Positions 14,800-25,249 of a stretch of 64,000 bases of DNA are shown one piece after another. Both the position numbers and the translations under genes were made by a program. The stretch lies in contig JAHBWZ010000001.1 of NCBI GenBank assembly GCA_019636755.1, forward strand, positions 310,001 through 374,000, read 5' to 3'. Source of the stretch: Phycisphaeraceae bacterium (GTDB lineage: Bacteria; Planctomycetota; Phycisphaerae; Phycisphaerales; SM1A02). Below the pieces are notes generated by a model. That model made no database searches. It saw only the letters and a list, made by a program, of their open reading frames with translations, and was not told the DNA's origin. How positions within the stretch are numbered: the first letter of the stretch is position 1; each line of letters opens with the position of its first letter.

Positions 14800-16644
14800 T
14801 CACTCGTCGCGGCGGCTCGTCCGGCTCATGAGCAGCATGCCATCCGGCCTGGACTCGACGAACCAGACGGCGTCCCCCTGCACCTGGGACGCCATGTCGA
14901 CAAGAAGCTCGCCGAAGATCCCGTCCGCCTGTTCAAGGCCGGGGACGTCCATCATGGCCATGAGCATGTGCAGGGTCGCAGGGTCCATCACCGAGGTGCC
15001 GGTGGCGGCGGCCAGGTCCGACCAGCCCCAGGCGACGACGTTCCGACCGCCGGTCAGGCTTCGCGCTGCGGCCAGGCGGGGATGCTGCGCCTCGGTCATC
15101 GGCGCCTGGTCGATGATCGCCGGGAGCGCGCGGAGCATCTTCTCCGATCCGATCCGCAGCGTGGTTCCTTCGACCAGCAGCGCCGGAACCACGCCCGGGT
15201 CGACCTGGATCGTCATCATCTCCGGCATATCCGTCAGGTCAGGCATCGTCGCCCTGTAGAGGGTCCGTCCGCCGCCCAGGTCCTCCCGGTCCATCGGCAT
15301 CGCCTCGCCGAGCATCTCGATCACCCCGGACAGACCGGCCGGGTCGCGGAGCGTGGTCGAGATCATCTGCGCGCCGCCCGGGTCGTCCGAGGAGGCATAT
15401 CCCGCCCCTTCGAACGTCCGTCCGACCAGGCGCCCGGCCGACTCGAGCATGGCGAGCGGACCTCCGTCGTCATCGCCGCCCTCCATTCCCATCTCGCCCA
15501 GGAGCATGGCAAGCGGTCCCTCCTCCACGGTGCGCCGCAGGATCGAGGCCGCTTCGGCGAAGTCCATGTTCACCGCCCAGTACGAGGTGGCTCTCCGCGC
15601 CATCGCCGCGGCCGGAACCGCCGCGGGCTCGCCCTGCCCCATCGCCTTCATCAGGCCGCCGGGGCCGGACGGGCTGCAGAGGAACACGCGCTGCTCGCTC
15701 GCGCCCGGCGCCGGGAAGTCCATGGACATCGAGAGCGACTCGACCTCTCCGACGAGTTCATGGAGCATCGGGACCACCATGAAGGAGAACCCCATCGGAT
15801 CGAACGCGGCGATGAGCGGTGCTGCGTTCGCGAAGATCACGGCGGCTTCGAAGGAACCACCGCCCCGCCCCTCCCGGCTGCGCTGCCATGCCTTCGACGA
15901 CGCGAGGCTGCCCGCGTCCGCCGCGGCCAGTCGCCCGATCGCCGTGTCCATCGCCGCGGCATCCGTCCCGACGACGAGATGCGTCCCGTCCACCAGGACG
16001 AACCACTCGCGGAATGCCTCCGCCATGACGTCCGGACCGCCCATACCGAAGTCATCGAACTGGAAGTCGAACTCGTCGTCATCGGGCGCGTCCGCGTCGG
16101 CCCCGCCGGCGCCGGGCGCCGACTGCCCGCCCGCCTCCACCGTGAACACGTAGGCGGTCCGTCCGCGCATGGGACGTTCTGCGATCGCCGTGCCGCCGCG
16201 CCGTGCTTCCGTCACCAGGCGCTCGATGGCCCCGCGCGCCGCATCGACCTGGTCGCCGAAGTCGCACGTCAGCAGCATCGCCGGAAGGACCATGCCGTCC
16301 TCGCGCGGCGGCGCTGCGAAGATGGAGAGCCCCACCGCCCCGGTCGGGACGGGAATCTCGCCCATGCTGAACATCGCCGCCACGTGCGCGGCAACGTCCT
16401 TCTCGTCCAGCGTGTGACCCGCCGCGCTCGACATCCCGCCGACGAGATCCGCGATCGATGTCGCGCGCAGGAAGATGACCGCGTTCTCCGGCGCGACGGA
16501 CTCCGGCGCCCGGGGCGGCGCGGCAACCGCATGCCACGTCGCAGACGCCGCCGACAGGAGTGCGGCAGCGCCGACGGAACGGAGTCGCGCCCACCCGGGC
16601 CGGCGCGAGGCGGACAGAACGCGGGTCGAGGGCATGATGATCAC
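14800..16644 (-). CDS. Large secreted protein, DUF3352-like
   Basis: 614 residues with an N-terminal signal (RLRSVGAAALLSAASATWHAVA). The mature part begins PENAVIFLRATSIADLVGGM, the pattern of secreted proteins resembling DUF3352, in which each half describes a quantity per residue block without known catalysis. There is a very acidic segment around residue 190 (DADAPDDDEFDFQFDD). The Met/Gly content is high and I see no catalytic motif. GTG at 16644 is preferred because GGAGG lies eight bases upstream; ATG at 16635 is nine bases in. It is 35 bases downstream of gltA and may be co-transcribed with it. Confidence 0.6.
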   Translation of the reverse strand: MIIMPSTRVLSASRRPGWARLRSVGAAALLSAASATWHAVAAPPRAPESVAPENAVIFLRATSIADLVGGMSSAAGHTLDEKDVAAHVAAMFSMGEIPVPTGAVGLSIFAAPPREDGMVLPAMLLTCDFGDQVDAARGAIERLVTEARRGGTAIAERPMRGRTAYVFTVEAGGQSAPGAGGADADAPDDDEFDFQFDDFGMGGPDVMAEAFREWFVLVDGTHLVVGTDAAAMDTAIGRLAAADAGSLASSKAWQRSREGRGGGSFEAAVIFANAAPLIAAFDPMGFSFMVVPMLHELVGEVESLSMSMDFPAPGASEQRVFLCSPSGPGGLMKAMGQGEPAAVPAAAMARRATSYWAVNMDFAEAASILRRTVEEGPLAMLLGEMGMEGGDDDGGPLAMLESAGRLVGRTFEGAGYASSDDPGGAQMISTTLRDPAGLSGVIEMLGEAMPMDREDLGGGRTLYRATMPDLTDMPEMMTIQVDPGVVPALLVEGTTLRIGSEKMLRALPAIIDQAPMTEAQHPRLAAARSLTGGRNVVAWGWSDLAAATGTSVMDPATLHMLMAMMDVPGLEQADGIFGELLVDMASQVQGDAVWFVESRPDGMLLMSRTSRRDE

Positions 16645-16679
16645 CGTGGATGCCTCCGCAGCGGGAATGAGACGCGGCT

Positions 16680-17828
16680 TCAGCGCCGGTCGAGGGGAAC
16701 GTACTGGACGGCATGCGGACCGGTATAGAGACACCCCGGACGCATGAGCTTATTGTCCTTGAGATACTCGATGCAGTGCCCGGCCCAGCCGGCGACGCGC
16801 GCCATGGCGAAGATGGGCGTGAACAGGTCCAGTTCAAGGCCGAGCGAGTGATAGGTGGTCGCCGAGTAGAAGTCGACATTCGGATGAATGCCCTTCGCGC
16901 CGACCGCCTCGTGCATGATCTCCTCGATCCGCCGGCTCATCGCGTAGAGGTCCTGGTTGCCGGTGTCCTCCGCGATCTGCTTTGCGAACGTCTTGAGATA
17001 CGTCGCACGCGGGTCGGTGGTCCTGTACACCCGGTGGCCGAATCCCATGATCCGGTCCTTCCGTGCCAGCCGGTCGCGCACCCACGGCTCGACGCGATCC
17101 AGCGTGCCGATCTCGCGCAGCATGTGCATCACTTCCTCGTTCGCGCCGCCGTGCAGCGGCCCCTTGAGCGTGCCGATGGCGGTCGTGATCGCGGAGTACA
17201 TGTCGCTGAGCGTCGAGATCGTCACCATCGCGGCGAAGGTCGATGCATTGAATCCATGCTCCGCGTGCAGGATCAGGCACACGTCCATCGCCCGCGCCAT
17301 CGCCGTCGTCGGCGGCTGGCCGTTGAGCATGGTGAGGAACGAGGTCGCGATGTCCTGATCGGGAGAGGGCCGCATGAAGGGCAGCCCCTTGCGGTGCCTG
17401 TCGAAGTTGGCGATCACCGCCGGCACGCGGGCCAGCAGCCGGATCGACTTCCGCTCGTTCGCCTCCTCCGACGGGTCGTCCGCCTCCGGATCGAAGAGCG
17501 CGAGCGACGAGACCAGCGATCGAAGCGCGTGCATCGGCGTCGCAGTCCGGGGGACCCGCTCGATGAGCTGCCAGAGCCCGTCCGGCAGGTCGTATTCCTC
17601 GCGGACGCGGTCGACGAATGATTCGAGTTCCTCCCGCCTGGGGAGCCGCTCGTTCCAGAGGAGAAACACCGTCTCCTCGAACGTCGAGTTCCGCGCAAGC
17701 GCATCGATGTCGATGCCCACGTACTCGAGGACGCCCTTCTGTCCATCGATGAAGCACATCCGCGACTCCGCCGCGAGTGTGTTCGCGAGTCCGCGATCGA
17801 CCGTCGGTTGACTCTCCATCTGAATCAT
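16680..17828 (-). CDS. gltA: Citrate synthase
   Basis: 382 residues, matching the shorter citrate synthases of about 370-390 residues. It condenses oxaloacetate and acetyl-CoA. The catalytic residues are in place: His226 in GPLHGGANEEVM, His265 in MGFGHRVY and Asp319 in PNVDFYSA. AEHGFNASTFAA is the conserved helix before the first histidine. The ATG at 17828 has GGAGAG upstream. A 2-methylcitrate synthase is a close relative, but no prp genes lie nearby. The start is only 30 bases from the divergent guanine-deaminase-type gene. Confidence 0.94.
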   Translation of the reverse strand: MIQMESQPTVDRGLANTLAAESRMCFIDGQKGVLEYVGIDIDALARNSTFEETVFLLWNERLPRREELESFVDRVREEYDLPDGLWQLIERVPRTATPMHALRSLVSSLALFDPEADDPSEEANERKSIRLLARVPAVIANFDRHRKGLPFMRPSPDQDIATSFLTMLNGQPPTTAMARAMDVCLILHAEHGFNASTFAAMVTISTLSDMYSAITTAIGTLKGPLHGGANEEVMHMLREIGTLDRVEPWVRDRLARKDRIMGFGHRVYRTTDPRATYLKTFAKQIAEDTGNQDLYAMSRRIEEIMHEAVGAKGIHPNVDFYSATTYHSLGLELDLFTPIFAMARVAGWAGHCIEYLKDNKLMRPGCLYTGPHAVQYVPLDRR

Positions 17829-19217: not shown

Positions 19218-20576
19218 TCAGCGGCGCCGGTTGCGCTGCATCTCGGCGAGCTGCCGCCGGAGCAGTTCCAGCTGCAGATCGATCTGCTCCTTGTCGAGAC
19301 CGCTCGTCAGCGCGATGAGGGGTGCACGGTCGCACCACCGGCGCAGTTCGGTCAGCGTCCGGATGACGGACCCGAGTCGCTCCATTTCATCACCGCCCGA
19401 TCCAACGTACCCCAGGCGCTGAAGAAGCAGCGGGATCTGCTGGTTGGCCTGCTTCGCGGTCTGCTGCCACCGGTCGGCTGCCTTCCGGCCGAAGTCGTCG
19501 ATCTCGTGCCAGCGCGGGAGGTCGAGCTGCTTCGCCAGGTCCTCCGGAAGGTCGGCGGTGCCCTTCGAGAATCCGCAGTGAAGCGCATTCGACGCGTTGA
19601 ACGTGAGGTTGCTCTTCTCATCGGAGAGCTTGTACTTGCCGCGCAGATCGCTGTACCACGTGATCACGCCGGTCTCCTCGTCCCTGTCGTAGGAGACCTG
19701 GAAGCGGTTCAGCTTCATCGCCCGGGCCACGTGCTCGCTGTAGCCGTTCTTGATCGCGAGTTCCACCAGCGCATCGATGTCTTCCTGCGCATCCTCTTCG
19801 GAGAGTGCGTTCGAGCCTGCGACCGTCGTCACCGACCCCGCGGTGCCTTCGCGCATGAAGTAGATCTCGTCCGTGCACATGGCCGTCCACGCGCCGGCGG
19901 AAATCGCCTTCCGGATCCAGCTGACCACGCGGTGACGCTGCTTGAGGTTCTCGATCTCCCGCGCGATCCGCCGGGCTTCGAAGACCAGTCCGCCGTTGGA
20001 GTCGATGATCAGGACGATCGTCTGCCCCGGCCCGTAGTTCCGGTCGATGTGCTCGCCCAGCGCCTTGATCTCGTCATGCCGGAATTCGATGCCGACGCCA
20101 CCCTCGAGCGGCAGGACGAACACGCCGAGTTCCCGGCCGCTGGCGTCCCGCGGAACATCCGCGGATCCGGCCGCACCTCGCGCTGCGGCGCCCGAGGCAT
20201 CGAGTCCCGGCCTGACGTCGCGCCCCGAGGTCCGCTCGGGCTCCCGCGCGGGCGCAGGATCCCGCGGCACCGTCCGCATCCGGATGATGTCCGCGCGGAA
20301 GATCGTCTTGTCGGCGGTCCGGCCCGCGATCGGGCCGCGCACGACGACGAACAGCGGCTCGGCCCGGACGAGTTCGCCGGTCATCTCGATATCGACGCCC
20401 TGCTCGCGGTGAACGACGGTCACCTGGTCACCGACCGCGCCGCGCCACCGGTCGCCGCCGGGCAGGCGGATCTCCACCTGCGCCTGGGCCGCCACCGTGA
20501 ACACCAGGGAGGCGACGAATGCCAGGAGGGCCAGGAGCCGCGGGAATGTCTGCTGTCTCATAGGGATGGTCTGCAT
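19218..20576 (-). CDS. Secreted Clp-fold serine-protease-like protein 1
   Basis: 452 residues. There is an N-terminal signal (RLLALLAFVASLVFTVAAQA), a small beta-barrel-like domain (EIRLPGGDRWRGAVGDQVTV), an Arg/Pro linker, then a Clp/crotonase fold: IVLIIDSNGGLVFEARRI and KAISAGAWTAMCTDEIYF. The Ser in ISAGAW occupies the catalytic position seen in SppA/NfeD-type proteases (ASAGA). Two Gln/Arg-rich helices follow at the C-terminus. The substrate is unknown and activity is not certain. It lies 21 bases downstream of a paralogue and is very likely co-transcribed with it. Confidence 0.75.
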   Translation of the reverse strand: MQTIPMRQQTFPRLLALLAFVASLVFTVAAQAQVEIRLPGGDRWRGAVGDQVTVVHREQGVDIEMTGELVRAEPLFVVVRGPIAGRTADKTIFRADIIRMRTVPRDPAPAREPERTSGRDVRPGLDASGAAARGAAGSADVPRDASGRELGVFVLPLEGGVGIEFRHDEIKALGEHIDRNYGPGQTIVLIIDSNGGLVFEARRIAREIENLKQRHRVVSWIRKAISAGAWTAMCTDEIYFMREGTAGSVTTVAGSNALSEEDAQEDIDALVELAIKNGYSEHVARAMKLNRFQVSYDRDEETGVITWYSDLRGKYKLSDEKSNLTFNASNALHCGFSKGTADLPEDLAKQLDLPRWHEIDDFGRKAADRWQQTAKQANQQIPLLLQRLGYVGSGGDEMERLGSVIRTLTELRRWCDRAPLIALTSGLDKEQIDLQLELLRRQLAEMQRNRRR

Positions 20577-20597
20577 GTGTTGACTGCTCGCTGCGGC

Positions 20598-22145
20598 TCA
20601 GCCGCCCGTACCCATTCCGCCCGCGCCACCGCGGCCGCCCCGTCCCGCGCCGCCGCGATTCTGCGACAGGGCGCGGATCTGTTCGCCGATCTGCTCGATC
20701 ATGACCTCGAGGAACAGCGTGTTGATGCCGTATTCGGCCTGCATCCGCAGGTCCACGGCGTCGTACCGCTTCATGGCACTGAGGACCTTCTGAAGTTCCT
20801 GCCGGATCCGGCCGAGGTCCTGGAGCTGATCGCCGCCCGTGCCGAACTGCTGGATCTTCTGCACCTCGCGCAGGCTCGCGACGGACCGGTCGAACGCACG
20901 GCGCCAGTCGGTGATGTGGCGGTCGATGATCTGCTCCGCCTTCCCGTCGACCACGCGGTATTCGCGGATGCCGAGGAGCAGCGCCAGGTCGTCCAGGTCC
21001 TCCGCCGTCCCGTCGCTGATCCGGAAGTTCTCCGCCGTCCGGGCGGTGAAGTTCACTGTGGCCGAATCGGAATTGTCGACGATGTACTCACCCGAGGCAT
21101 CGAGCGCCCACTTCACCGCCCGCCCCTGCCAGGTGGCGCTGAGCCGGTACTCGGGGCGGACCATCGCGTCGACCAGCCGGAGATCGTGCTCCGAGTGCTC
21201 GACGAAGCCCTTCAGCCAGGCGACGTACGCCTCGCGATACTTGCCGAGCATGTTCTGGTCGTGCGCCACCACCATGAAGTTGCGGGCGGAGGTCCCCAGT
21301 CCGCCGAACCGGGCGGTCGGCTTCATGTAGATGTCGGTCCACGACAGTGAGAGAACCGACGAGATCCCGACCGAATCGTGCACCCAGACGATCTGCGGGT
21401 AGTCGCGCAGTTCATCGCGGAAGATGTTGATGATCTTCCGGTACATGTCGAGCGCGCCGCTTCCGTCGAACGAGCGATCGGGCGAGCGCTCGCCCATCCG
21501 GCTCCGCGCCCAGGTCAGCAGGTCGTCCAGCGGTTCCTCGGCGGCAACGTCCGCGGAGTTGATTGTGAAGACGAGGTAATCCGGATCATGCGTCCGGATG
21601 TCCTCGATCATCGCCGCATAGGGCTCATAGCTGACGTCGGTGCCGAACTGGCCACGCATCGGGATGAGGTACAGCCGCGTGACATCGTCATCGCGCGTCA
21701 CACGCCGTGCACCGAAGCTGCGCTGCCGCCGCGTCTGGGCCTCGGGAGTCCGCTCCGTCCGGCCGCCCGTTCCGGGATCGGTCCGATCCGGCACGGCCTC
21801 GTCCTTCTTCTCGACCGGCACGTTCCGCCGGATGGCATCGATGTCCGCCCGCGCATACCGGACCTGCGACCGGATGCCCTCGACGCTCAACTCGAAGAGG
21901 ACGGAGTCCCGTCCCTCCTCCAGCACCCGGCCCCGGAGCACCCGGCCGTCGCGCATCACGAGCACGTCCTCCGTCTCGTCCGCGACCCGCAGCGAGACGG
22001 CGGCGGCACTCGCCGGCGCGAAGACGCTCACCGGCCCTGCAGCGCCGGCGGTCATGCCCGCCGCCGGCATCGCGACGAGCGCGGCGGCAAGTGTCAGCGG
22101 AGAGAACCCGGCAGGCCGGAACGAGTGGAATCGTGAGGTCTTCAT
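20598..22145 (-). CDS. Secreted Clp-fold protein 2, divergent active site
   Basis: 515 residues with signal peptide. The layout matches the next gene: a small barrel (VLVMRDGRVLRGRVLEE), a linker rich in Arg and Glu, and a Clp-like fold, here YLVFTINSADV then VHDSVGISSVLSLSWTDIYM. Aligned with its neighbour, ISAGA becomes ISSVL: the Ser is kept but the small Ala-Gly-Ala after it is lost, so an oxyanion-hole function is doubtful. The C-terminus is a Gly/Arg tail. The start ATG at 22145 gives a normal signal peptide. I infer a non-catalytic or regulatory partner. Confidence 0.7.
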   Translation of the reverse strand: MKTSRFHSFRPAGFSPLTLAAALVAMPAAGMTAGAAGPVSVFAPASAAAVSLRVADETEDVLVMRDGRVLRGRVLEEGRDSVLFELSVEGIRSQVRYARADIDAIRRNVPVEKKDEAVPDRTDPGTGGRTERTPEAQTRRQRSFGARRVTRDDDVTRLYLIPMRGQFGTDVSYEPYAAMIEDIRTHDPDYLVFTINSADVAAEEPLDDLLTWARSRMGERSPDRSFDGSGALDMYRKIINIFRDELRDYPQIVWVHDSVGISSVLSLSWTDIYMKPTARFGGLGTSARNFMVVAHDQNMLGKYREAYVAWLKGFVEHSEHDLRLVDAMVRPEYRLSATWQGRAVKWALDASGEYIVDNSDSATVNFTARTAENFRISDGTAEDLDDLALLLGIREYRVVDGKAEQIIDRHITDWRRAFDRSVASLREVQKIQQFGTGGDQLQDLGRIRQELQKVLSAMKRYDAVDLRMQAEYGINTLFLEVMIEQIGEQIRALSQNRGGAGRGGRGGAGGMGTGG

Positions 22146-22477: not shown

Positions 22478-23800
22478 TCACCGTCGGGCGGTGATCAGCG
22501 CCGCGGCACGTTCCAGCGCCTCCGCCCGCGACCGCACCGCGCCCTCGAGCTGCTCGTCGTACAGCGCCCGCAGCAGGCGCCCGAGCGATGGACCGGGCCT
22601 GGCGCCCAGCGCCACGAGGTCGTCTCCACGGACAAAGGGCGGGGGAATCACGCCGACCTCCCGGAAGGCCTCCAGCGCCGCCCGGATCTCCGCGACGGCC
22701 CGACGCTCGGCGGCCGGACCCGCCTCGAGCAGGCGCATCGCCTCCGCGAACACCGCCATGCCAGCCAGCCGGCGTCGTGCGGCGACCCGCATCCCGCGCC
22801 AGCCGCGCGGCGCACACGCCTCGTCGTCCGCGAGCGGCGCCGCAGGCATGTCCCGGTCGGCGCCCGGTCCGGGACCCGTCGCATCCGACCCCAGGATCCG
22901 GGCTCGGATGGCGACCAGGTCACGCACCCGTTTCTGGTCGGCCCCGGAGAGGACGAGGGCCCGGGACCATGCCTGCGGTGCCTCCCGAGGCGGTGTCCCT
23001 CCCCAGCGATCCAGCATCCACGCCGCCAGGGGAAGGGTCCAGTCCGCCGGGCCCTCGATTCCGTCGACCCGCGGGCTCCGGCCGCGACCCGCCTGTGCCT
23101 CCAGGAGGATGGCGCGATCGAGCCCCAGCGATGTCAGCAGGGCCACCGCGTCTCCGCGCGATGGATGCTCCAGCATGAGCCTGAGTTCCTGGCCGATCCG
23201 CTCGCGGCTGACACCGGCCAGCCTCGGGACATGGCGTTCGATCGCAGCGGCGGTGGCGGACTCGATCCGGAAGCGGTACCGCGCCGCGAATCGGACGGCA
23301 CGGAGCATCCGGAGGTGGTCCTCATCCAGCCGGCGATCGGCGTCACCGATCGCACGGATGACACCCTCCTCCAGGTCCCGGCGCCCGCCGACGAAATCCA
23401 GGACCTCGCCGCTCTCCGGATCGAGGAAGAGCCCGTTGATCGTGAAGTCGCGCCGATGCGCGTCCTCCTGCGCCCCGGCGAATGTGACGTGATCGGGTCG
23501 TCGCCGGTCCGAGTACGGTCCGTCGGTGCGGAAGGTCGCCACCTGCGTTTCCGTGCCCTCGCGCCGGACGAGGACCACGCCGAACGCCTGTCCCACCTCC
23601 CGGCTCCCGCGGAAGATCCGGCAGACATCCGCCGGCCGCGCGTCGGTGGCGATATCGAAATCCTTGGGCACGATGCCGAGGAGTTCATCCCGCACGCATC
23701 CACCCGCGAAATAGGCGACGAAGCCTGCTTCGCGCAGCCGCATGACCAGCCGCATGGCAGCCGCGCGCGCATCCGGAGCGTGTCCGCCGGAGTGGACCAT
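22478..23800 (-). CDS. cca: CCA-adding enzyme/poly(A) polymerase family protein
   Basis: 440 residues of the class II nucleotidyltransferase family. GGCVRDELLG near residue 33 and DFDIATDA, with Asp47 and Asp49 as metal ligands, form the catalytic core. RRDFTINGL and DEDHLRMLRAVRFAARY follow, as in CCA-adding enzymes and bacterial poly(A) polymerases, which sequence cannot always tell apart. Neither tRNA in the window encodes CCA, so a CCA-adding enzyme is required in this genome. The ATG shares one base with the stop of rsmD (TGATG), so translation is coupled. Confidence 0.85.
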   Translation of the reverse strand: MVHSGGHAPDARAAAMRLVMRLREAGFVAYFAGGCVRDELLGIVPKDFDIATDARPADVCRIFRGSREVGQAFGVVLVRREGTETQVATFRTDGPYSDRRRPDHVTFAGAQEDAHRRDFTINGLFLDPESGEVLDFVGGRRDLEEGVIRAIGDADRRLDEDHLRMLRAVRFAARYRFRIESATAAAIERHVPRLAGVSRERIGQELRLMLEHPSRGDAVALLTSLGLDRAILLEAQAGRGRSPRVDGIEGPADWTLPLAAWMLDRWGGTPPREAPQAWSRALVLSGADQKRVRDLVAIRARILGSDATGPGPGADRDMPAAPLADDEACAPRGWRGMRVAARRRLAGMAVFAEAMRLLEAGPAAERRAVAEIRAALEAFREVGVIPPPFVRGDDLVALGARPGPSLGRLLRALYDEQLEGAVRSRAEALERAAALITARR

Positions 23801-24390
23801 CACACGGGCTCCGCACGTTCCGGCTGGAAGTACAGCACGAACATCTCGCGACCGGCGCGGTGGACCTCGGGGCCGATGAAGCCGGGAATCGCCAGGTCGA
23901 CCTGCGGCGGTCCGACCGGTGAACGCAGCACCAGGTAGCCGTCGACCGAGATCAGCGGCGCCCACCGGCTGAGCGCCTCCAGGATGGCCTGCCGATCTGC
24001 CGGAGCGGCCATGCGGTCGTAGGGCGGATCACAGAAGACGACATCCAGCGGCGCCGGCGCCGCGCGCCGGACCCGTTCTCCCAGCGCATCGTCGCGAAGC
24101 ACAGTCGCCCGGTCACCGACACCAAGTCCCGTGATGTTCTCCAGCAGGAGCGCATGAACGGCGGGATCCCGCTCGACCAGCAGCGCGCACTCGGCGCCGC
24201 GGCTGAGCGCCTCGAGCCCCATGGTCCCGATGCCCGCGAACAGGTCAGCGATTCTTCCGCCCGGCACATGGCCGCGCAACTCGCTGAAGACCGACTCCCG
24301 TGCCCGCGCGGTCCACGGACGCGTCCGGTCGGTCCCCCTCGGGGTCCGGAGCAGCCGCGAGCGCAGATGTCCGCCGGTGATCCTCAGCAT
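23800..24390 (-). CDS. rsmD: 16S rRNA guanine(966)-N2-methyltransferase
   Basis: 196 residues. Motif I of a Rossmann methyltransferase is IADLFAGIGTMGLEALSRGA, and the catalytic FCDPPY (residues 119-124) is the signature of amino-group methyltransferases of the RsmD family. The N-terminal MLRITGGHLRSRLLRTPRGT matches the family's usual MRIIGGxxRGRxL beginning and fixes the start at 24390. The gene is coupled to the CCA-adding enzyme downstream. Confidence 0.9.
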   Translation of the reverse strand: MLRITGGHLRSRLLRTPRGTDRTRPWTARARESVFSELRGHVPGGRIADLFAGIGTMGLEALSRGAECALLVERDPAVHALLLENITGLGVGDRATVLRDDALGERVRRAAPAPLDVVFCDPPYDRMAAPADRQAILEALSRWAPLISVDGYLVLRSPVGPPQVDLAIPGFIGPEVHRAGREMFVLYFQPERAEPV

Positions 24391-24451
24391 GGCCGGGATG
24401 ATATGAGCCGGTGCGGCGACCGCTTCCGCCACGCCGCAGTACCATCGGCGG

Positions 24452-25249
24452 ATGACCGGTCCGATCCTTCCGGCCGCTCGATCCACGCTCCCCCAGGCGC
24501 TGCGCGCGCAGAGTCGCTGGGATGCGATCGACGGCGTGATTCCAGTCCTCCTCGCCAGGCCGGTCGCGCCGACCGGACCGGCGCCGATCCTGATCTGGCT
24601 GCACGGACGGACCGTGTCCAAGGAACTGGACCCCGGACGGTATCTGCGCCTCATCCGTTCCGGGATCGGGGTCGCGGCCATCGACCTGCCGGGCCATGGC
24701 GAGCGGTATGACCAGGCGCTTCAGGCGCCGGAGGCGACATTCGATGTCGTCCGACAGGCGCGGGCGGAAATCGACCGCGTCGTCGAGTGGCTCAGGCGTC
24801 CCGGAGACTTTGATCCGGATCGCGTCGCGGTCGGCGGCATGTCCGCCGGCGGCATGTCTGTCCTGTCCCGGCTCTGCAGTCCGCATGGCTTCGCGGCCGC
24901 AGCGGTCGAGGCGACCACCGGGTCCTGGCGCCACCAGCGCGGGCGCGCCATGTTCCTGCACCTCGCCGAGGACGTGATCCGGGCCCTCGATCCGATCGAA
25001 CACCTGGACACCTGGCGCGAGATCCCCCTCCAGGCGGTCCACGCCCGGCGCGACGCGTGGGTCGACTTCGCCGGGCAGCAGGCGTTCATCGATGCACTCC
25101 GGAACCGGGCACGGAGTCCCGGATCGATCGAACTCGTGGTGTTCGAGGAGACCGGTGCGCCGCACGAGCACGCCGGGTTCGGGCGTCACGCCGCCGAGGC
25201 CAAGGACCTGCAGCGCGCGTTCCTGATCCGGCACCTGCGGCCGCGGTAG
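24452..25249 (+). CDS. Alpha/beta hydrolase
   Basis: 265 residues. ILIWLHGRTVSKE supplies the oxyanion strand, GGMSAGG the nucleophile elbow, and HARRDAWVDF and HEHAGF are likely to carry the acid and histidine. This resembles the dienelactone-hydrolase/prolyl-oligopeptidase-like group (cf. acyl esterases); the substrate is unknown. TACCAT (24440-24445) ends six bases before the ATG, and no Shine-Dalgarno sequence is visible, so the mRNA may be leaderless. Confidence 0.78.
   Translation: MTGPILPAARSTLPQALRAQSRWDAIDGVIPVLLARPVAPTGPAPILIWLHGRTVSKELDPGRYLRLIRSGIGVAAIDLPGHGERYDQALQAPEATFDVVRQARAEIDRVVEWLRRPGDFDPDRVAVGGMSAGGMSVLSRLCSPHGFAAAAVEATTGSWRHQRGRAMFLHLAEDVIRALDPIEHLDTWREIPLQAVHARRDAWVDFAGQQAFIDALRNRARSPGSIELVVFEETGAPHEHAGFGRHAAEAKDLQRAFLIRHLRPR

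Follow-up and report, generated by a model that had tools for sequence, protein, structure and literature searches.

Two adjacent genes of a Phycisphaeraceae bacterium, here called P1 and P2, probably encode an obligate heteromeric exported protease with a split Ser-Lys dyad. It is also fairly likely that a single duplication gave rise to tandem paralogs which then split this dyad by complementary loss, and that the split state has been kept across several bacterial families. The genes lie in a window of 64,000 nucleotides (the whole stretch of DNA that was analysed), where a preliminary description had read two neighbouring genes on the same strand. Both are indeed present on the minus strand, P1 running from 22145 to 20598 (20598..22145; 515 amino acids) and P2 from 20576 to 19218 (19218..20576; 452 amino acids). 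P1 is predicted to be an exported ClpP-fold paralog without the serine and with the dyad lysine; P2 is its predicted exported counterpart with the serine and a Gly-Gly loop and without the dyad lysine. The two genes share a reading frame and are separated only by the single TGA stop of P1 (20600-20598, minus strand) and an in-frame spacer of 21 nt (20577..20597, minus strand). The segment upstream (22478-24681, minus strand) reads rsmD, then a cca/poly(A) polymerase-type gene (22478..23965, minus strand; Pfam PolyA_pol, 6.3e-35), then P1; the cca-type gene has homologs at related loci and is a conserved neighbour, that is, context outside the enzyme. A promoter and terminator scan at the locus gave no signal exceeding that of shuffled sequences. 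Elsewhere in the window, positions 14800-16734 (minus strand), near a citrate synthase gene, encode a predicted 644-amino-acid protein without a Pfam match at 1e-5.

P1 and P2 have a common layout in which a small beta-barrel comes after an N-terminal export-type segment and a disordered linker joins it to a ClpP-like domain, with a helical region at the C-terminus. The preliminary description had proposed a signal peptide, small barrel, linker and Clp-like fold for both genes, and this architecture is seen in the predicted models. In P1, the barrel (residues 58-110; 21816..21974, minus strand) was delimited by predicted secondary structure and is missing from 12 of the 81 P1 orthologs; the ClpP-like domain (residues 156-398; 20952..21680, minus strand) was placed from the secondary structure of a fusion model described below and from hhalign, and the helical region (residues 403-497; 20655..20939, minus strand) from the same secondary structure. 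P1 ends in a Gly/Arg-rich tail (residues 498-515; 20601..20654, minus strand), and a Gly-rich C-terminus is found in 49/81 P1 orthologs compared with 3/81 P2 orthologs. For P2, an AlphaFold2 model from 29 sequences (pLDDT 88, pTM 0.81) shows an N-terminal helix at residues 11-27, a barrel of seven strands (residues 33-102; 20271..20480, minus strand), the disordered linker, the ClpP-like domain (residues 152-360; 19497..20123, minus strand) and the C-terminal helices (residues 362-451; 19224..19493, minus strand). The ClpP-like domain of P2 is further identified by its match to Pfam NfeD1b_N (51.2 bits) and by the best structural match of the model, the archaeal protease domain 1510-N (Z 21.3, rmsd 2.0 A over 181 residues), ahead of Bacillus subtilis SppA (Z 15.7) and ClpP (Z 16.0 and below). 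The P1 sequence profile gave only chance-like matches against PDB sequences, on the helices and the Gly tail.

The ortholog profiles of the two proteins align with each other by hhalign over 378 columns (probability 100, E 1.8e-39, 17% identity), which covers the greater part of their length and makes P1 and P2 paralogs. Conservation was counted over 81 P1 and 81 P2 sequences, the window's own included, in a joint alignment of the Clp domains. P2 keeps the motif ISAGA (residues 225-229), as had been read before, and its Ser226 (codon 19899..19901, minus strand) occupies the position of Ser97 of 1510-N in the structural match and is the predicted nucleophile, a serine being present in 80 of the 81 orthologs. 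The sole P2 without it is an extra copy (L136b), the third gene of a tandem triplet of the P1-P2 type (L136, genome G038), in which the Gly-Gly loop is kept and the serine has become glycine. This loop, the predicted oxyanion-hole loop of P2 (Gly195-Gly196; codons 19989..19994, minus strand), is GG in 81/81 P2 sequences and is not kept as such in P1 orthologs. The position expected to hold the dyad lysine is, in P2, Glu261 (codon 19794..19796, minus strand), which is variable, with E in 22, R in 17, A in 14 and K in only 2 of the 81 sequences. The pattern in P1 is the reverse. Lys302 (codon 21240..21242, minus strand), the counterpart of Lys138 of 1510-N and the predicted general base, is the only position invariant across all 81 P1 orthologs, and its correspondence to the Glu261 column is found by hhalign, in the joint alignment and by counting 17 residues back from the next glycine. 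Six residues N-terminal of it, Asp296 (codon 21258..21260, minus strand) is near-invariant (78/81). At the position of the missing serine P1 has Gly260 (codon 21366..21368, minus strand; G 73, A 5, Q 1, V 1 and S 1 among the 81), within the sequence DSVGISS, and hhalign independently pairs this glycine with Ser226 of P2.

The complementary pattern of residues holds over 81 + 81 sequences and is not chance, and it changes how the pair had been understood. The preliminary description had taken ISSVL in P1 as standing in place of ISAGA; P1 does lack the serine, whereas ISSVL (261-265), considered as a degenerate counterpart of the P2 motif, was rejected because the residue aligned to Ser226 is Gly260. 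The idea of a catalytic and a non-catalytic partner survives in that the nucleophile is found in P2 only, but the division itself is probably wrong, since it had overlooked that P2 is without the catalytic lysine and that, at that place, P1 has a lysine which never varies. Judged from these alignments, P1 is probably a lysine donor and thus more than a non-catalytic partner. Where two intact active sites would have spoken against a division of labour, the alignment shows neither site to be intact in itself. A Ser-His-Asp triad in P2 was also considered and rejected, as His215 was invariant in a first alignment and not at the level of the order; indeed, no Lys, His or Asp reaches 80% conservation among the 81 P2 orthologs.

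In the mechanism that we infer, P2 would provide the nucleophile Ser226 and the oxyanion hole Gly195-Gly196, while P1 would pack on P2 and provide the general base Lys302, which Asp296 probably helps to position. By analogy with 1510-N, a dimer of P1 and P2 would contain a single functional site, located in a single substrate tunnel, and neither protein is expected to cut alone because the serine is in one and the lysine in the other. The likely role would be the cleavage of hydrophobic or membrane-derived peptides in the envelope. The invariance of Lys302 could have another cause, for example structure or substrate binding. In the first of the other readings, which we consider unlikely, P2 would be a protease by itself, relying on a water-mediated mechanism or on a base that has escaped recognition, and P1 would be a pseudoenzyme whose role is scaffolding, regulation or substrate delivery. 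P2 is the member that keeps the nucleophile and the Gly-Gly loop and is the closer match to 1510-N, and non-catalytic ClpP-fold partners such as ClpR do exist. Against this, the absence of any P2 Lys, His or Asp at the 80% level leaves a lone P2 without a candidate base, the ancestral lysine site varies freely, and the reading gives no reason for the dyad lysine being the single residue that never varies in P1.

The proposed split dyad is best appreciated by comparison with relatives in which the dyad is undivided. A set of 16 proteins from the same order, comprising 14 secreted stand-alone proteins and 2 NfeD1b-type proteins, has both dyad residues in one chain, with Ser in 16/16 and Lys in 15/16; a faster alignment of 20 candidates that included odd members gave 18 and 14, respectively. 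The lysine column of the stand-alone profile falls on Lys in wild-type 1510-N (2deo) and on Ala in the K138A mutant (3bpp), and the serine column falls on the residue changed in the S97A entry (6m4b). The secreted stand-alone Clp-fold proteins (L143-L162) are widespread in families f2, f5 and f6, most of them with the full Ser-Lys dyad, and to our knowledge these proteases have not been described as a group. The window's genome itself also encodes an NfeD1b-type protein with AFSAG and a lysine in the expected region. In 1510-N of Pyrococcus horikoshii, the protease domain of NfeD1b/STOPP, the S97A and K138A substitutions each abolish activity, and the dimer binds one peptide across a pseudo-two-fold axis with both residues 138 very close to each other (PMC3795559). 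Sites in SppA are composed of residues from two adjacent monomers (PMC7568657).

The trees are compatible with a single duplication. In a careful tree, for which catalytic columns were masked and three long rows dropped, the stand-alone proteins (98/93), P1 (99/94) and P2 (93/91) each form a group, and in a larger quick tree the P1 and P2 groups lie together, nested among stand-alone proteins, with a broadly parallel order of families within P1 and within P2. The simplest reading of these sequences is a single tandem duplication followed by complementary loss, of Ser from P1 and of Lys from P2, the direction of loss depending on the NfeD1b rooting. The tandem duplication would have affected a stand-alone NfeD1b/1510-N-like gene with both residues, in an ancestor shared by several families of the order, and the loss of the opposite catalytic residue from each copy would have rendered P1 and P2 interdependent.

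Whether the two halves could meet was approached by modelling. The read-through product P0003, which spans the one in-frame stop, was folded as one chain by template-free AlphaFold2 from an alignment in which 28 more in-frame pairs supplied paired rows and 21 rows were unpaired, each half being matched to its own half. The resulting fusion model has a pTM of 0.71 and a pLDDT of 82.7, with 177 of 975 residues (18%) below pLDDT 50. Independently placed halves would be expected to give a pTM of about 0.45, estimated as the share of one half, so that the value obtained suggests a defined arrangement in which the P1 and P2 halves pack together; this pTM is an indirect measure, and the method may be too ready to pack homologous domains that are fused. 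Taken together, both Clp halves of the fusion can be aligned with E. coli SppA and its two domains (model residues 156-888 on chain residues 56-551, 347 residues, Z 13.9, rmsd 6.7 A), which implies that P1 falls on the SppA N-domain and P2 on the C-domain. Because the rmsd is large, this alignment is supportive only and the arrangement loosely similar. In a Foldseek search with the fusion model, the top rows have the length of one Clp domain and most rows cover the P2 half, while SppA covers both.

A further reading, which we regard as quite improbable, is that neither protein is a protease and that they form an envelope structural or peptide-binding complex, their residues being kept for binding. 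It draws on the facts that protease activity is a prediction and that the P1 score of 13.2 bits is well short of the 40 bits set for the family, and the C-terminal helices and Gly-rich tail could act as a scaffold; yet Ser226 and Gly-Gly of P2 and the lysine at the dyad position of P1 have been retained near-fully despite large divergence. A heteromeric protease remains the preferred reading, and the distribution of the genes adds to it.

Genomes belonging to the family and the order of the window supplied the related loci. In all 80 loci with both genes (the window included), P1 comes before P2 on one strand, the regions having been chosen for nearby P1 and P2 matches, and this gene order is conserved in dozens of genera. 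A close-sequence alignment with P2 matched 32 named records titled Phycisphaerales, Phycisphaerae or other Planctomycetota, compared with none from a single-protein scan for named relatives. P1-type proteins are rare outside the order: of 294 genomes sampled across the phylum, 9 had one at 1e-12, and eight of these 9 belong to the same order as the window. The conserved order extends upstream: cca lies ahead of P1 in 9/9 paired loci examined from families f2 and f4, BLAST detected a cca homolog in 23 of those 32 named records, a set that includes truncated ones, and cca-P1-P2 adjacency occurs in families f1, f2 and f4, often with rsmD preceding cca. This recurrent order links an RNA enzyme gene to a predicted exported protease. 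The preliminary description had asked whether the pair is always together; it is so in nearly all genomes that have it, and most unlinked cases (e.g. G001, G024 and G029) lie at contig ends. Two genomes depart from it. In G033, P1 (L142) is still beside cca and P2 (L204) is on another contig; this is also the only P1 with a serine at the elbow (HAFSVAS), which may have been regained or kept. In G035, another gene follows P1, no P2 was found in the 97%-complete draft genome, and the P1 lysine is present. These two genomes offer some footing to the very improbable reading that each protein forms a homo-oligomer of its own with its own role, the genes staying together by operon history only, but complementary loss would leave either homo-oligomer without a complete dyad, and the two genes are adjacent and in the same order at the loci of 80 genomes as well as in the named records.

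The occurrence of S49/SppA was also surveyed. PF01343 was not found anywhere in the window's genome. Among 46 genomes of family f1, to which the window belongs, 11 had S49/SppA and 35 did not; in the other sampled families of the order it was present in 103 of 105 genomes. P1/P2 might cover hydrophobic-peptide clearing in genomes without S49/SppA. A simple replacement of SppA was rejected and would be partial at most, as family f2 usually has both. If the split dyad is real, it would represent a natural subfunctionalisation inside a single active site, in which paralogs that each lost one residue are mutually dependent, and, since undivided relatives persist in the same order, the evolutionary path could be tested residue by residue. 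It would also mean that Phycisphaerales have, in genomes that are often without SppA, an exported protease with an activity that depends on the assembly of two gene products, and would serve as a warning that a 'pseudoprotease' without a nucleophile may be half an active site.

Comparison with known systems shows which features P1/P2 share with them and which they do not. For Pfam PF25145 (NfeD1b_N, cut-off 40 bits), P2 passes and P1 fails, and in family f4 both members of the pair score above the cut-off (40.2 and 73.1). P2 stays below the cut-offs for SppA (35.1 of 155 bits for TIGR00706) and for SDH-type ClpP-like proteases (PF01972, 19.1 of 31.3 bits; NF047768, 23.1 of 250), PF01343 was reported for neither protein, and the Ser-His-Asp triad of ClpP (S14) is not seen in P2, as no His or Asp is conserved at 80% or more. 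A literature search of limited coverage for split Ser-Lys dyads or paired ClpP-fold proteases returned nothing relevant, which is weak evidence.

The mixed rings of ClpP/ClpR and ClpP1/ClpP2 resemble P1/P2 in being built from paralogous ClpP-fold subunits. Their Ser-His-Asp triad, however, lies within one chain, they act in the cytosol or plastid with an AAA+ partner, and the ClpR subunits, which are without catalytic residues, are pseudo-subunits that are not known to donate the missing residue. Another system for comparison is SppA (MEROPS S49), which occurs as the octamer of B. subtilis and the two-domain enzyme of E. coli (3bf0). In the E. coli enzyme, Lys209 comes from the N-domain and Ser409 from the C-domain, the same order as P1-P2, and in S49 the lysine is on a hairpin preceding a helix. 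SppA has an inter-subunit Ser-Lys site (PMC7568657), and the fusion model aligns over both of its domains, but SppA is one gene product, with the E. coli dyad split between domains of one chain, and P1 and P2 are nearer to NfeD1b. NfeD1b genes stand in an operon with an SPFH (stomatin-like) gene (PMC2636767), whereas P1/P2 have no SPFH neighbour, the adjoining genes being the PolyA_pol-type gene and rsmD and the Band_7 genes lying on other contigs. Neither P1 nor P2 matches NfeD_membrane, which the true NfeD1b relative L147 does match, and both are predicted to be exported, with an extra N-terminal barrel and C-terminal helices. NfeD1b proteins have the Ser-Lys dyad in one polypeptide, whereas here Ser is in P2 only and Lys in P1 only. 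The stand-alone secreted Clp-fold proteins (L143-L162) share with P1/P2 a signal sequence, small barrel region, Clp-like domain, C-terminal helices and the same family by profile, and differ in having the full dyad in one chain. Finally, 1510-N (2deo, 3bpp, 3viv, 6m4b) shares the ClpP-like fold, its Ser97 and Lys138 corresponding to Ser226 of P2 and Lys302 of P1, and acts as a dimer on one peptide (PMC3795559); each chain of its homodimer has both residues, whereas in P1/P2 the two residues are carried by two genes.
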